From Alphaproteobacteria bacterium (GTDB lineage: Bacteria > Pseudomonadota > Alphaproteobacteria > SMXP01), in the NCBI GenBank assembly GCA_028285305.1, contig JANQPV010000036.1, positions 62,001 to 126,000 on the forward strand: DNA of 64,000 bases. Reading direction: 5' to 3'. A program made the position numbers and the translations under genes. Shown in pieces: positions 28,912 to 39,870 of this stretch. The notes below the pieces were generated by a model that was given only the letters and a program-made list of their open reading frames with translations, had not been told where the DNA came from and did not search any database. Each line of letters begins with the position of its first letter. The first letter of the stretch is position 1.

Positions 28912-30816
28912 TTAAGGCATAACAATCTCAAACCAGAAATCGAACACATCGAGCAAGGACAGAAAGTCTTCAATCGCTGAAATGTCACCATCAACTTTCA
29001 TACGCCCATCCGCCTGTAGCTCCGTGGCAGACATTTCCTTCAACACAAGCGCGGCGAGGTCCAATCGAGCGAGAGAAAGAGAAGCGTCCGCATTTTCGTA
29101 AGTTTTCCCTTTCTGCTGGTGAAAGACTGCATTCTCCACGCTCACTCCAAAACGCTCGTCCTCATCGGCGATATGGAGGTTGATCCGATACTCTTGTGCT
29201 CCCGCGCGCTCCCCATTCAACCGCACACTGAGAGAATCGAGAATTTGTTCGGCGGGCAATGTCTTGACTTGGTTGGCGTTCGCCGGCCGCGGCACATCCG
29301 AGGGTGGCCGCGGATGGCGAAGCTCCATAGCCCCGGTCAAATAGAACGCCCTCCACGGACCGCTTTCCGCCTGGTACCCCAATTGCTCAAGCGTATTCGC
29401 TTGAAGCAGGCGCGCGGGCTCATTAGCGGGATCCGCAAAGACGATATGATTCACCACTTCCGCAACCCAGCGATAATCGCCCTCTTCGAACGATTTCCGT
29501 GCTTTGGCCAGTGCTTCATCCGCTCCCCCCATAAAGTCCACATACCGCTTTGCCGCCTCCACCGGGGGCAGGGGATGCAGGTTGGCCGGGTTCCCGTCAA
29601 ACCATCCCACATACCGTTGATAGACGGCTTTGGCATTGTGATTGAGGGTCCCGTAATACCCTCGTGTGTACCATTCGCTCGCCAATGTCGGCGGCAAGGC
29701 GATTTCTTCTGCAATTTCTTTGGGCGTCAGCCCGTGATTGGCCAAACGCAGAGTTTGGTCGTGGACGAACTTATACATATCTCTCTGCTTTTTGAGGTAC
29801 GTCACAGCCTCGTCCCGGCCCCATCGCGGCCAATGGTGACTGGCGAAAAGCACGTCGGTATCCCCGCCAAAGAGATCGATGGCTTCATTGATGTAATAGC
29901 TCCACGACTTGGCGTCTCGCACTTGCGCGCCCCGCGGCGTGTACACATTATGCATATGGCAGGTGCAATTCTCCGCCATACAGAGAGCTTTCATCTGCGG
30001 GAAATAGAAGTTCATTTCCGCCGGAGCTTCCGTATCAGGCGTATACTGAAAGATGATCTCCACGCCATCCACACTCACACGAGTCCCCGTTTCGGAAATG
30101 ATTTCGTTCGGCGGCACCAGACTGACCGAGCCCAGGGAAACGGTCTTGCCCAATCCCGCATCCACATGCCCTTTCGGACCGCGCGGCAGCATGGCCCCAT
30201 ACATATAGGTCGCCCGCCGCCCCATGACATTGCCGGCCAGCACATTTTCGCTCACCGCCTCTTCCAAAAAACCATCTGGCGCAAAGATACGCACATCGCC
30301 CGCATCGATCTCCTCATCAGCCAGCACACCCTTAACACCGCCATAATGGTCAACATGGGAGTGAGTATAAATCACTGCCTTGACCGGCCGCTCACCCTGA
30401 TGCTCCCGGTACAGATCGAGAGACGCCTTTGCTGTTTCCGCTGAAATGAGAGGGTCAATCACAATGATACCCTCGTCGCCCTCAATGAACGTAATGTTGG
30501 ACAGGTCGAAACTGCGAACCTGATAGATCCGCTCGGTGACTTCAAAAAGACCGTGAATGGAGTTCAGCCGAGCCTGCCGCCAGAGGCTAGGATGAACGGT
30601 ATCAGGTGCCTGCTCTTCTTTCTGAAACGCAAACGTACCCATATCCCAAACCGGGTTTCCATCCGCATTAAGAATTTTCACATCCTCACGCGTAGCCAAA
30701 AATCCCCGCCTTGCCAGGTCAAAGTCTTTCGGGCTATCGGTTGGCAGTTGGACCGCACTCTTTGCGAGCGCATCCTTTGTCGCAGAAGTGGCGTCTTTGG
30801 GTAATTTATCGTCCAC
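28912..30816 (-). CDS. SdsA-type alkylsulfatase, metallo-beta-lactamase fold
   Basis: 634 residues. The binuclear zinc motif T-H-S-H-V-D-H-Y-G-G (about 171-180) and later E-N-C-T-C-H-M-H-N-V-Y-T-P-R-G-A segment match SdsA1/BDS1-type alkyl sulfatases. An alpha-helical dimerisation domain follows the catalytic domain, and an SCP2-like domain occupies about the last 120 residues. They hydrolyse primary or secondary alkyl sulfates to alcohol and sulfate. No Sec signal is obvious at the N-terminus, unlike secreted SdsA1, so the enzyme may be cytoplasmic. Released sulfate could feed the cysD-cysNC genes 3 kb away, though nothing proves joint control. Confidence 0.9.
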   Translation of the reverse strand: MDDKLPKDATSATKDALAKSAVQLPTDSPKDFDLARRGFLATREDVKILNADGNPVWDMGTFAFQKEEQAPDTVHPSLWRQARLNSIHGLFEVTERIYQVRSFDLSNITFIEGDEGIIVIDPLISAETAKASLDLYREHQGERPVKAVIYTHSHVDHYGGVKGVLADEEIDAGDVRIFAPDGFLEEAVSENVLAGNVMGRRATYMYGAMLPRGPKGHVDAGLGKTVSLGSVSLVPPNEIISETGTRVSVDGVEIIFQYTPDTEAPAEMNFYFPQMKALCMAENCTCHMHNVYTPRGAQVRDAKSWSYYINEAIDLFGGDTDVLFASHHWPRWGRDEAVTYLKKQRDMYKFVHDQTLRLANHGLTPKEIAEEIALPPTLASEWYTRGYYGTLNHNAKAVYQRYVGWFDGNPANLHPLPPVEAAKRYVDFMGGADEALAKARKSFEEGDYRWVAEVVNHIVFADPANEPARLLQANTLEQLGYQAESGPWRAFYLTGAMELRHPRPPSDVPRPANANQVKTLPAEQILDSLSVRLNGERAGAQEYRINLHIADEDERFGVSVENAVFHQQKGKTYENADASLSLARLDLAALVLKEMSATELQADGRMKVDGDISAIEDFLSLLDVFDFWFEIVMP

Positions 30817-33929: not shown

Positions 33930-34057
33930 CTTCCGCGGCACCCTAAGACGAGAATGGTTAAGGATTTTCGAGCAAGCCAAGCCTGTGTGTCTTGTCCCAC
34001 GATCAGCCCCCTAATCTGGACCAAAAGACAAAAAAACTAACAGATCACTCAGAAATG

Positions 34058-34073
34058 GTGGGTTGCATCCCAC
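34058..34073. promoter_or_regulatory. operator-like 16-bp palindrome upstream of cysD, site 1
   Basis: GTGGGTTGCATCCCAC: arms GTGGG/CCCAC around a TGCA core, with a single mismatched pair. It lies 63-78 bases upstream of the chosen cysD start. A related palindrome lies 51 bp downstream (centre to centre) and shares the right half-site ATCCCAC. Likely binding site for a dimeric HTH protein, possibly the product of the following gene. Confidence 0.5.
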
Positions 34074-34109
34074 GTTTTCATAAGTAAGTTCCAATTGTCA
34101 CACCAACCA

Positions 34110-34123
34110 TGGGAAAAATCCCA
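34110..34123. promoter_or_regulatory. operator-like palindrome upstream of cysD, site 2
   Basis: TGGGAAAAATCCCA: arms TGGGA/TCCCA with a four-base A spacer, ending 12 bases before the chosen cysD start codon. It overlaps an alternative in-frame ATG at 34109. Its right half (ATCCCAC with the next base) repeats that of site 1. A protein bound here would block ribosome loading or transcription into the operon. Confidence 0.5.
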
Positions 34124-34135
34124 CAAAAGGCGCCG

Positions 34136-35293
34136 ATGTCCCAAATCAATGATTTGCTTCACAGGGCGGAGACTTATGCCGAACGTCATGGTCTCTCCCT
34201 CTCCACCGTATCCCGAAAACTCCTCAACGATGGCAAGGGGCTCGCCCGGCTCAAGACAGGAGGCCAGTGTACAATGAAAACTCTGGAAACGGCGTTCGAA
34301 AAGCTCGATGCGCTTGAAGAGGACAAGCCATCGAACGGAGGCGTTCAACGCCCAAAAAAACAAGTTCGAGAGCGCGGCGAAGAGCTGTCCAGACGGACGC
34401 TCAGTCACCTAAGTCGTCTCGAGGCGGAAAGCATTCACATCATGCGCGAAGTGGCAGCCGAAGCCGAGAACCCGGTCATGCTCTACTCGGTTGGCAAGGA
34501 CTCCTCCGTGATGCTGCATCTTGCGATGAAGGCGTTCTATCCGTCTAAGCCGCCCTTTCCCCTCATGCATGTGGACACCACATGGAAATTCCGCGAGATG
34601 ATCGAGTTCCGGGACAATATCGCAGCCGACCTCGGGCTGGATCTGATCGTTCACATCAACCATGAAGGCGTAAAGCAAGGCGTCAATCCGTTCACACACG
34701 GATCCCAAGTTCACACTGATATTATGAAGACCCAAGCCCTGAAGACGGCGCTCGACAAGTACAAGTTCGACGCGGCCTTTGGCGGAGCACGCAGAGACGA
34801 AGAGAAGTCCCGCGCCAAAGAGCGTATCTTCTCGTTCCGCTCAGCCCAGCATCGCTGGGACCCCAAAAATCAGCGTCCGGAGCTATGGAATATCTACAAC
34901 ACGAGAATACACCAGGGTGAGTCGATCCGCGTGTTCCCTCTTTCGAATTGGACCGAGCTCGACATCTGGCAATACATCTACAAAGAAAACATCCCCATCG
35001 TTCCTCTCTACTTTGCCCGCAACCATCCGGTCGTGGAGAGAGATGGTACACTGATCAAAGTCGACGACGACAGGATGCCTTTGATGGACGGTGAAACGCC
35101 TAAACTCAAAAAAGTCCGTTTCCGGACTTTAGGGTGTTACCCGCTGACAGGCGCGGTTGAATCTGAAGCGGAAACTCTTACCGATATCATCCAAGAGATG
35201 CTGCTGACCACGACATCTGAACGCCAAGGCCGAGTGATTGACCATGACGCGGCGGCCTCTATGGAGAAGAAAAAGCAAGAGGGGTATTTCTAA
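34136..35293 (+). CDS. cysD: sulfate adenylyltransferase subunit 2 with N-terminal HTH-like domain
   Basis: 385 residues. Residues about 91-385 are a complete Cys[15 protein letters not shown]-loop L-Y-S-V-G-K-D-S-S (117-124), H-V-D-T-T-W-K-F, and the [12 protein letters not shown] segment. With CysN it makes adenosine-5'-phosphosulfate from sulfate and ATP. Residues 1-65 are extra and resemble a small HTH domain ([20 protein letters not shown]), joined by a charged linker. No in-frame ATG, GTG or TTG exists between codon 47 and the CysD core, so an extension is unavoidable. ATG 34136 is preferred (AAAGG site); ATG 34274 with AGGAGG ten bases upstream is an alternative internal start. Stop and cysNC start overlap (TAATG). 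Confidence 0.9.
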
Positions 35294-37203
35294 TGGCCCA
35301 TCAATCAGCACTGATCGAGGAAGACATCCTCGAGTACCTTCAGGAGCACGAGAACAAGAGCTTTCTGCGTTTCATTACATGCGGCAGTGTGGATGACGGC
35401 AAGTCGACGCTCATCGGACGCCTGCTTTATGATTCCAAATTGATTTTCGAAGACCAACTTGCCGCCCTCGAAACCGACAGCAAGCGCCAGGGGACCCAAG
35501 GAGACAAGATTGATCTGGCCCTCCTCGTTGATGGGTTGGCCGCTGAACGCGAACAAGGGATAACCATAGACGTTGCCTACCGGTTCTTTTCGACGGACCG
35601 GCGCAAATTTATCGTTGCCGACACGCCGGGCCACGAACAATACACGCGAAACATGGCAACCGGCGCCTCGACTGCCGATCTCGCGATTGTCCTGATCGAT
35701 GCGCGCTCCGGGGTTCTGACCCAAACACGGCGCCATAGCTACATCCTATCGCTTCTCGGTGTTCGTCAAGTTGTCGTCGCCATCAATAAGATGGATCTGG
35801 TGAATTTCGATAAATCAGTATTCGATGCGATCGAAGCGGAGTATCGCGAATTTGCCAGACACTTGAACTTCAACGACATCGTCTTCATGCCGATTTCGGC
35901 ACTCCAAGGCGACAACATAACATCGAAGAGCGTTCACACGCCTTGGTACAAAGGGGCTGCCCTCCTTCCATATCTGGAAACTGTCGACGTCGCACAAGAC
36001 GAGAGCTCGGAGTCTTTTCGTCTGCCGGTCCAATGGGTCAACCGTCCCAATCTCGATTTCAGAGGTTTTTCAGGCACAATCTCAAGCGGAACAGTTCACG
36101 TCGGCGACGAGGTGGTGGCCCTGCCCTCTTCCAAGCGAAGCCGCGTGAAAGAAATTGTGACCTACGATGGCAACCAATCCCAGGCCGGCAAAGATGAAGC
36201 AATCACCCTTACGCTCACCGATGAGATCGACATAAGCCGAGGGGATATTCTGTGCGCGGGCAACGATCCTGCACAACAAACGGATCAGTTTTCGGCTCAC
36301 TTGATTTGGATGGGAGAAGAGGATCTCTTGCCCGGCCGGCAGTACATTTTGAAGACCGCAAATAAGTCGGTCCCGGCGAACATAACCGATTTAAAGCACA
36401 AGATTAACGTAAACACCCTCGACAAGCAGTCCGGCAAAACACTAACCCTCAATGAGGTCGGCCTCTGTAACTTCGCGACCAGTCAACCGGTCTTTTTCGA
36501 TCCCTACGCGGAGAATCGTGAAACCGGGAGCTTCATTCTTATCGATCGTCAGACGAATAACACGGTCGGTGCAGGGATGATAGAGTTTTCCCTCAGACGC
36601 GCCCAAAACGTCCACTGGCAAGCATTGGAGATTGATCGAAAGGCAAGAGCTTCCCTCAAACATCAAAAACCGTGCATCCTCTGGTTCACGGGGCTGTCCG
36701 GCTCCGGCAAGTCCACGGTTGCCAATTTGGTCGAACAGCAATTGCATGACTTGGGACGCCACACCTACATTCTCGACGGTGACAATGTCCGGCACGGCCT
36801 AAACAAGGATCTGGGCTTCACCGACGCGGACAGAGTCGAGAACATCCGCCGTGTTGGCGAAACCGCAAAGTTAATGATCGATTCGGGATTAATCGTCTTG
36901 GTATCTTTCATTTCCCCCTTTGTAAGCGAGCGGAACATGGCGCGCGAACTCGTAGAAGACGGCGAGTTCATCGAAGTCTACATCTCCACGCCGTTGGAGG
37001 TCTGCGAGCAGCGCGACGTCAAAGGCCTGTATGCCAAAGCACGGCGGGGTGAAATCAAAAACTTCACCGGCATCGATTCGGACTACGAGCCACCCGAAAA
37101 CCCCGAACTCGTCCTAGATACGTCCGAGATCGCCGCCGAAGCAGCCGCGACCCAGATTGTCAAATACCTGGAAGGTCGAGGCTACTTGAGCGGAGGCGCC
37201 TAA
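35293..37203 (+). CDS. cysNC: CysN-CysC fusion: sulfate adenylyltransferase subunit 1 / adenylylsulfate kinase
   Basis: 636 residues. The N-terminal GTPase module (about 20-440) has the P-loop G-S-V-D-D-G-K-S-T (31-39), D-T-P-G-H-E-Q-Y-T-R-N and N-K-M-D-L-V. The C-terminal APS kinase (about 455-636) has its own P-loop G-L-S-G-S-G-K-S-T (467-475) and the D-G-D-N-V-R-H-G-L segment. It uses GTP hydrolysis to drive APS formation by CysD, then phosphorylates APS to PAPS. The start shares one base with the cysD stop, so the two are made together. No reductase (cysH/cysI) is in the window, so the product may go to sulfation or to unlinked assimilation genes. Confidence 0.95.
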   Translation: MAHQSALIEEDILEYLQEHENKSFLRFITCGSVDDGKSTLIGRLLYDSKLIFEDQLAALETDSKRQGTQGDKIDLALLVDGLAAEREQGITIDVAYRFFSTDRRKFIVADTPGHEQYTRNMATGASTADLAIVLIDARSGVLTQTRRHSYILSLLGVRQVVVAINKMDLVNFDKSVFDAIEAEYREFARHLNFNDIVFMPISALQGDNITSKSVHTPWYKGAALLPYLETVDVAQDESSESFRLPVQWVNRPNLDFRGFSGTISSGTVHVGDEVVALPSSKRSRVKEIVTYDGNQSQAGKDEAITLTLTDEIDISRGDILCAGNDPAQQTDQFSAHLIWMGEEDLLPGRQYILKTANKSVPANITDLKHKINVNTLDKQSGKTLTLNEVGLCNFATSQPVFFDPYAENRETGSFILIDRQTNNTVGAGMIEFSLRRAQNVHWQALEIDRKARASLKHQKPCILWFTGLSGSGKSTVANLVEQQLHDLGRHTYILDGDNVRHGLNKDLGFTDADRVENIRRVGETAKLMIDSGLIVLVSFISPFVSERNMARELVEDGEFIEVYISTPLEVCEQRDVKGLYAKARRGEIKNFTGIDSDYEPPENPELVLDTSEIAAEAAATQIVKYLEGRGYLSGGA

Positions 37204-37760: not shown

Positions 37761-38657
37761 ATGGGAAAAAGAATAATTGAATTGGTCGGCGTCGGGGCAG
37801 CCGCTCTTATGATGTCGTCCGGAATTGCACTTGCGGGGGCCGGCGATCAGTGTTGCGCCGATGCGGAACGGCTTCAGCAGGAAAATGATTTGCTGCGGGC
37901 ACAACTTGAAAACATGGAAGAAAAGAAGAAACCGCTGTTGGACATTCCCGGAGATCTTTCTGCGAATGCGGCGTTTGCGACCGATTATAGCTTCCGTGGT
38001 ATTTCGCAAACGGATAACGGACCGGCTTTGAGCGGCGGACTTGATTGGTCCCACGATACAGGTTTCTATCTCGGAACTTGGGTGTCCAATATTGACGCTT
38101 CTTTTGGCGGACCTCGCGCATCCAGCCCGGAATTGGAAGTAGATATCTATGCGGGCTACGCACGCGAATGGTCCCAAATCCTCTGGGATATTGGCGCCAT
38201 GTACTATCACTACGCCAACATCAATGAATCGCCCGGCGACCCCGAGGTCGATTATTGGGAGTTCTACGGCAAAGCCGGACATGATTTTGGCCCCGTCGAC
38301 GCTACGCTTGGAGTGGCAATCTCTCCTGATTACATAACAGAGTCTGGATTTTTTGCTTATCCGAACTTGAGCCTCGGAGCCGCACTGCCGGGGGCAGAGT
38401 GGTTAACCGTTGGCGCCAATGTCGGCTACAGCTTCATTGATGAAGAAGAAGATCTTGGTGTTGGAGACTATCTGGACTACGGCGCATCGATTAACGCGCT
38501 TATCGAAGATCTGGTAACCTTGAGCGTCGGCTATTACGGAACGAACCTTGACGACGACGAGTGCTTGAACCCTGGTGCTGGGATCTTTGGCGTAGCCGGA
38601 GGCAACGACCGGGCATGTGACGGTCGTGTGATTGGATCTGTTTCCATCGCTTACTAA
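37761..38657 (+). CDS. TorF-family putative outer-membrane protein, copy 1
   Basis: 298 residues. A Sec signal (G-V-G-A-A-A-L-M-M-S-S-G-I-A-L-A, cleavage near 25) is followed by a Cys-Cys pair and a short coiled coil E-R-L-Q-Q-E-N-D-L-L-R-A-Q-L-E. The beta-barrel begins with A-A-F-A-T-D-Y-S-F-R-G-I-S-Q-T, the diagnostic TorF (TIGR02001) stretch, and ends in aromatic Ala-Tyr as barrel proteins often do. GGAGG precedes the ATG. Role presumed porin-like or structural. It is followed by a terminator and a close paralogue in tandem. Confidence 0.88.
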   Translation: MGKRIIELVGVGAAALMMSSGIALAGAGDQCCADAERLQQENDLLRAQLENMEEKKKPLLDIPGDLSANAAFATDYSFRGISQTDNGPALSGGLDWSHDTGFYLGTWVSNIDASFGGPRASSPELEVDIYAGYAREWSQILWDIGAMYYHYANINESPGDPEVDYWEFYGKAGHDFGPVDATLGVAISPDYITESGFFAYPNLSLGAALPGAEWLTVGANVGYSFIDEEEDLGVGDYLDYGASINALIEDLVTLSVGYYGTNLDDDECLNPGAGIFGVAGGNDRACDGRVIGSVSIAY

Positions 38658-38982: not shown

Positions 38983-39870
38983 ATGGGAAACAAAGTAATT
39001 GGATTGGTCGGCGTCGGAGCAGCCGCTCTGATGATGTCGGCCGGAATTGCAGTTGCGGGGGCCGGCGATGAATGCTGCGCCAACGCAGAACGGCTTCAGC
39101 AGGAAAATGACCTCCTGCGCGCACAACTGGAAGCCAAACAAGACGTGCAGGAAGAAGCGCCACTGCTCGACATCCCGGGAGATCTGTCGGCGAACGCGGC
39201 TTTTTCAACCGACTACAGCTTCCGCGGAATTTCACAAACCGACAACGGCCCGGCTTTGAGCGCCGGACTGGATTGGAGCCACGAGACCGGCTTCTACCTG
39301 GGTACCTGGTTGTCGAATGTTGATTTTTCAGGATCAAGCCCTGAACTGGAAGTCGACATCTATGGCGGATATGCCTGGGACTGGGATGAAGTGGCTCTAG
39401 ATCTTGGCGTCATATACTATCACTACGCCAATGTGAACGAAGCACCGGGTGCGAACGAAATCGACTACGTCGAGTTCGTCGGGAGCGCCGGACGTGCGTT
39501 CGGCCCCGTCGATGCCACGCTGGGTGTTGCAATTTCTCCCGACTACACAAGCGAAAGCGGGTTTTATGCGTATCCGAATTTAACCCTGGGTACGGAAATG
39601 CCTGGTGCTGAATGGCTCAGCTTCGGAGCAAATATCGGCTATAGCTTCATTGACGAAGAAGAAGATCTTGGGATTGCCGACTATCTCGATTACGGCGTGT
39701 CGGTCAGCGCACTGGTCGAAGACCTCGTCACCTTGAGCGCGGGCTACTATGGCACCAATCTCGATGACGACGAATGCTTGAACCCGGGCGCCGGTGTCTT
39801 TGGCGTGGCGGGCGGCAACGACCGCGCATGCGATGGCCGCGTAATTGGATCCGTTTCCGTCGCTTACTAG
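38983..39870 (+). CDS. TorF-family putative outer-membrane protein, copy 2
   Basis: 295 residues, tandem paralogue of 37761-38657 with the same signal peptide pattern, Cys-Cys pair, coiled coil and barrel strands; the last about 40 residues (from Y-Y-G-T-N-L-D-D-D-E-C to the final A-Y) are almost identical. The main differences are a slightly longer linker after the coiled coil (K-Q-D-V-Q-E-E-A) and a shorter loop where copy 1 has A-S-F-G-G-P-R-A. GGAGG precedes the ATG. Separate promoter and terminator suggest the copies can be expressed independently. Confidence 0.88.
   Translation: MGNKVIGLVGVGAAALMMSAGIAVAGAGDECCANAERLQQENDLLRAQLEAKQDVQEEAPLLDIPGDLSANAAFSTDYSFRGISQTDNGPALSAGLDWSHETGFYLGTWLSNVDFSGSSPELEVDIYGGYAWDWDEVALDLGVIYYHYANVNEAPGANEIDYVEFVGSAGRAFGPVDATLGVAISPDYTSESGFYAYPNLTLGTEMPGAEWLSFGANIGYSFIDEEEDLGIADYLDYGVSVSALVEDLVTLSAGYYGTNLDDDECLNPGAGVFGVAGGNDRACDGRVIGSVSVAY

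Follow-up and report, generated by a model that had tools for sequence, protein, structure and literature searches.

An HTH-CysD fusion in alphaproteobacteria, predicted to bind conserved in-phase operators before its own gene

Introduction

Does an enzyme of sulfate activation bind to the DNA in front of its own gene? The window, that is, the whole 64 kb stretch of alphaproteobacterial DNA analyzed here, raises this question with a cysD gene that encodes an N-terminal HTH domain and is preceded by related palindromes. An earlier note had placed two such palindromes at centres 34065.5 and 34116.5, 51 bp apart, and both the positions and the distance were correct. Sulfate activation is a central step, and its control is usually credited to separate regulators. 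Enzymes carrying a DNA-binding domain are a known kind, and trigger enzymes of this type include PutA, BirA, and NadR (PMC8249747, PMC6978683, PMC5343134). Self-regulating enzymes are few and have been discovered one by one.

Results

The HTH-CysD fusion gene and its operon

The features of the locus are listed in Table 1. The encoded protein starts with an HTH domain (about 62 residues), continues with a variable linker, and ends with a complete CysD part, which begins at about residue 88 and matches TIGR02039 over the whole domain (521 bits; curated cut-off, 397). The structure 1zun_A was the only solved relative found. The HTH and CysD parts lie in one frame in 70 distinct genomes, collected by a contig scan and whole-genome searches, with conservation of the CysD columns, SxGKDS among them. 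An alignment of relatives placed the start codon at 34136 (MSQINDLL...) and contradicted a start at the ATG at 34109, which would give the longest open reading frame (ORF). The second palindrome (34109..34124) is thus located upstream of the gene, not inside it, with the start codon 11 bp downstream. The cysNC gene overlaps the cysD stop codon by one base. On the tree, which is weakly resolved, the fusion label needs two changes, but a single clade was not rejected (AU p = 0.515), and the idea of several origins of the fusion was dropped.

Table 1. Features of the HTH-cysD locus in the window
Feature	Sequence	Position	Strand	Basis or remark
Putative operator, third copy with a degenerate left half	GTGTGTCTTGTCCCAC	33985..34000	.	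weight matrix score 11.7, threshold 7.2
Putative operator, first palindrome	GTGGGTTGCATCCCAC	34058..34073, centre 34065.5	.	weight matrix score 18.2
Putative operator, second palindrome	ATGGGAAAAATCCCAC, contains TGGGAAAAATCCCA (34110-34123)	34109..34124, centre 34116.5	.	weight matrix score 22.5
HTH-CysD fusion gene, stop included		34136..35293	+	CysD subfamily TIGR02039, E 8.8e-157; 1zun_A matched from residue 88
HTH domain (fusion residues 1-62) with four predicted helices		34136..34321	+	alignment, model, PHROG_7669 (E 1.9e-8)
Variable linker		34322..34396	+	model of low confidence at residues 66-84
cysNC (sulfate adenylyltransferase subunit 1 / APS kinase), rest of the operon		35293..37203	+	PRK05506 family

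In the window's own genome (95% complete), the fused cysD was the one PAPS_reduct gene found, and each of eight relatives carried at least one further, cysH-like PAPS_reduct gene. Possibly the assembly does not include cysH; alternatively, the operon could function in PAPS-dependent sulfation. A few kilobases from the sulfate activation operon, a gene on the minus strand (28912-30816) resembles, on visual inspection, a metallo-beta-lactamase-type alkylsulfatase. Downstream of the operon lie two tandem, similar genes (37761-38657 and 38983-39870), the first of which encodes a TorF-family putative porin (gcw_chp).

The HTH domain

Among profile families, the HTH domain matched only PHROG_7669, whose function is unknown; the match of the window's domain extended over the whole length, and four relatives gave E values of 4e-7 to 4e-6. 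Nothing in Pfam or NCBIfam scored above the cut-off, with sub-threshold Pfam matches such as DUF6364 and LacI. The model of the domain consists of four helices with a mean pLDDT of 88 and weakly resembles the XRE or lambda-repressor-like fold (Foldseek E of 0.4 or worse; VIA-align Z of 5 to 7.5 with several repressors). In the model of the whole protein, the HTH domain was confident, the linker was of low confidence, and the CysD part was less certain. A phage origin of the domain was considered and set aside, as tblastn gave no match in annotated phage records.

Palindromes in the window and in relatives

A third copy, GTGTGTCTTGTCCCAC, which was not part of the earlier finding, was located 73 bp upstream of the first palindrome. 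The spacings between the three copies are 73 and 51 bp, corresponding to 6.95 and 4.86 helical turns. The pattern GTGGG-N6-CCCAC with at most one mismatch occurs four times in the 64 kb, against 1.64 expected, and 10 of 100 shuffles reach four; the count is near chance and therefore proves little taken alone. Three of the four matches fall within 140 bp (33985-34124), all preceding HTH-cysD. What raises the palindrome pair above chance is its conservation in relatives.

A palindromic weight matrix, TCGTGGGA-WWWW-TCCCACGA, was trained on the fused loci and applied with a 5% shuffle threshold. On these same loci, at least one site exceeded the threshold in 67 of the 70 fused genes and at least two in 57, although the upstream regions are otherwise dissimilar. 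Since the matrix was trained on the fused loci, the independent comparison is that with unfused genes by a fixed consensus: at least 10 of its 12 bases were matched upstream of 12 of 13 fused cysD genes, as against none of the 60 without the fusion (Fisher p = 7e-13). In Parvularculaceae, both the HTH domain and the site were absent from the loci with unfused cysD (L037, L052, and L056). According to the earlier note, a lack of conserved palindromes where the fusion is conserved would speak against its proposal, and the comparison did not refute it. The fused genes without a site above the threshold were L008, L217, and L220, and the sole site above it in L225 is distant and weak. Isolated TTCCCACGA half-sites persist upstream of HTH-cysD in L008, L220, and L225, and the operator in the group formed by these four loci may be altered.

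Helical phasing and promoter geometry

In the relatives, the spacings between neighboring sites ranged from 32 to 125 bp and clustered near whole multiples of 10.5 bp. This helical phasing was significant over 71 spacings (R = 0.55, p = 6e-10) and for the distinct values (p = 0.003 by jitter). It was retained when one locus was taken per identity cluster, with R values of 0.56, 0.61, and 0.70 and p values of 1e-7, 9e-6, and 2.6e-3 at 85, 80, and 75% identity, respectively. The same-face spacing proposed by the earlier note is thus conserved, whereas its exact five turns are not, the number of turns varying from about 4 to 12.

The centre of the proximal site was most often 7 to 10 bp before the ATG, so near that little room is left for a Shine-Dalgarno sequence. 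Promoter-like hexamers placed a -10 element 38 to 62 bp before the ATG in 30 of the 70 loci (12.7% expected, p = 4e-10), and in 48 of the 57 loci with two or more sites the outermost operators enclosed such hexamers (null 56%, p = 5e-6). A strong consensus promoter was rejected, because the scores were no better than those of shuffles and the position alone was non-random. For the HTH-cysD gene of the window, no convincing promoter was found. For the relatives as a set, in-phase operators on both sides of a predicted promoter, the arrangement of the gal type, were observed.

Occurrence of the site and of the HTH family elsewhere

Only one member of the HTH family was found in the window's own genome, and there is thus no close paralogue that would compete as the cognate protein. 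Matches with at most one mismatch were few in this genome and eight relatives, and counts were mostly near those of a reversed-pattern control; with two mismatches, the own genome gave 124 matches against 106 for the control. Among the matches listed, the inspected ones were inside ORFs, with two exceptions: the sites preceding fused cysD genes and a single match (L134) in the own genome. The matches listed gave no sign of a regulon beyond cysD, as counts were mostly near the control and inspected matches elsewhere were almost all inside ORFs. No site above the threshold was detected at nine loci with a second, cysH-like PAPS_reduct gene.

Beyond CysD, divergent members of the HTH family stand alone or are joined to other enzymes. 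Pfam identified fusions to NAD synthetase (L234, 695-3007), AMP nucleosidase (L272), and fumarase C (L274). The domain also occurs in a protein of about 470 residues (L237, L267, and others), which had no Pfam or NCBIfam match and by eye resembles a SAM methyltransferase. With a per-gene criterion of p = 0.02 or better against the gene's own shuffles, the palindrome was found within 250 bp upstream in 10 of 31 non-cysD HTH genes, where 0.6 would be expected (p = 3e-10). These include stand-alone, NAD synthetase, fumarase, and methyltransferase-like genes; none was found upstream of the AMP nucleosidase fusion (L272). The occurrence of the same palindrome before other genes starting with the HTH domain indicates that the site tracks the HTH domain rather than cysD. 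All 10 palindromes preceded HTH genes with a DGK signature (10 of 16 vs. 0 of 15 without it, p = 2.5e-4, for a signature chosen post hoc). One stand-alone HTH protein (L235, 814-871) has GNGS instead of NDGK in its recognition region and TGGC-N6-GCCA instead of TGGG-N6-CCCA upstream, possibly a specificity switch.

Discussion

The palindromes are best read as operators of the fused HTH domain, and we put the probability that HTH-CysD binds these in-phase sites, most likely repressing cysD-cysNC, at roughly 0.85. Autoregulation by the enzyme, as the earlier note had suggested, is the explanation that best fits the data, with a site before nearly all fused genes, none before unfused cysD, and conserved phasing; it is very probable that the enzyme regulates its own synthesis. 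Points that speak against this reading are the three fused genes with no site and the one with a distant site, the absence of a convincing promoter in the window, and the HTH genes with the DGK signature outside cysD, only 10 of 16 of which have the site. HTH-CysD would occupy the two or three in-phase GTGGGA-N4-TCCCAC sites upstream of its gene, through cooperative contact or by forming a short DNA loop. Where relatives have at least two sites, the outermost ones mostly flank the predicted promoter. The operon would most likely be repressed when the enzyme is plentiful. We infer binding, repression rather than activation, and looping; since 51 bp leaves little length for a free loop, cooperative contact may come closer to the facts. 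What switches DNA binding is speculative: by analogy with BirA and PutA, it could be the catalytic state, a ligand (ATP, APS, or PAPS), or the partner CysN.

That the palindromes arose by chance has next to no probability, since they recur before 67 of 70 fused genes across dissimilar upstream regions, even if their number in the window is unremarkable. They could also be RNA hairpins in the leader that, for example, mask the start codon, as the proximal palindrome adjoins this codon and would be transcribed. Over 138 sites, however, 181 paired positions showed a one-sided change and only 9 a compensatory one, all 9 at the outermost G, a weak position. Changes that are nearly always one-sided indicate DNA sites rather than RNA hairpins. 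The helical phasing and the distal copies upstream of the predicted promoter also argue against hairpins, which we consider very improbable.

Two other explanations accept the palindromes as protein-binding sites, and both appear unlikely, the first somewhat more so than the second. The operators could belong to a separate transcription factor encoded elsewhere, such as a sulfur regulator, with the HTH domain of CysD having another role; a different factor that changed in step with the fusion would be compatible with the sequence data. With a sulfur regulator, other sulfur genes should carry sites as well, but the site is absent before unfused cysD and the scanned cysH loci and present before genes for stand-alone HTH proteins and other HTH-enzyme fusions. 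Alternatively, HTH-CysD could bind the sites and activate the operon. The distal site is often upstream of the predicted -35 element, like the sites of activators, whereas the proximal site, mostly 7 to 10 bp before the ATG and downstream of the predicted promoter, has a position typical of repression, and paired in-phase sites around a promoter resemble those of gal (PMC4693257). Autorepression by HTH-CysD remains the preferred reading.

It also appears somewhat probable that a small, undescribed alphaproteobacterial HTH family serves as a plug-in autoregulator, joined N-terminally to several unrelated enzymes and bringing its GGGA-N4-TCCC operator along. If so, each of these enzymes (CysD, NAD synthetase, fumarase C, the methyltransferase-like protein, and AMP nucleosidase, whose gene has no visible site) would be its own regulator with no separate regulatory gene. 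A DNA motif here indicates the target of a domain not described in Pfam or NCBIfam, and sequence alone reveals, in dozens of species, a fused domain along with its putative operator and target gene. HTH-CysD offers a testable system for the coupling of catalysis to DNA binding, and its operator spacings form a rare natural series for the study of helical phasing.

No report of the CysD fusion or of the HTH family was found in the open-access text searched. Compared with CysD proteins (TIGR02039; 1zun_A), the fusion retains CysD in full from residue 88 on, with cysNC as the next gene, but differs in an N-terminal extension of about 87 residues that includes the HTH domain and in the putative operators upstream. 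The domain matches the phage family PHROG_7669 over its whole length and differs from it by the enzyme fusion. As in trigger enzymes, a domain of the DNA-binding type is joined to a complete enzyme domain, and the presence of the site before 67 of 70 fused and 0 of 60 unfused genes makes it the probable cognate operator. Like PutA, BirA, and NadR, HTH-CysD would be a metabolic enzyme that controls transcription through a DNA-binding domain, a role predicted here from sequence, although both the enzyme and the HTH family are different. PutA binds only the putA-putP region, its own gene included (PMC8249747, PMC6978683, PMC5343134), and BirA is rarely autoregulated, namely only in Desulfovibrionales (PMC5343134). 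In the gal operon, in-phase GalR sites flank the promoter and form a 113 bp loop of 11 turns (PMC4693257). The relatives with HTH-CysD likewise have in-phase operators flanking a predicted promoter at spacings of 32 to 125 bp, while the 51 bp of the window is shorter than the gal loop. GalR is a separate regulator, whereas the putative regulator here is the first enzyme of the operon itself.
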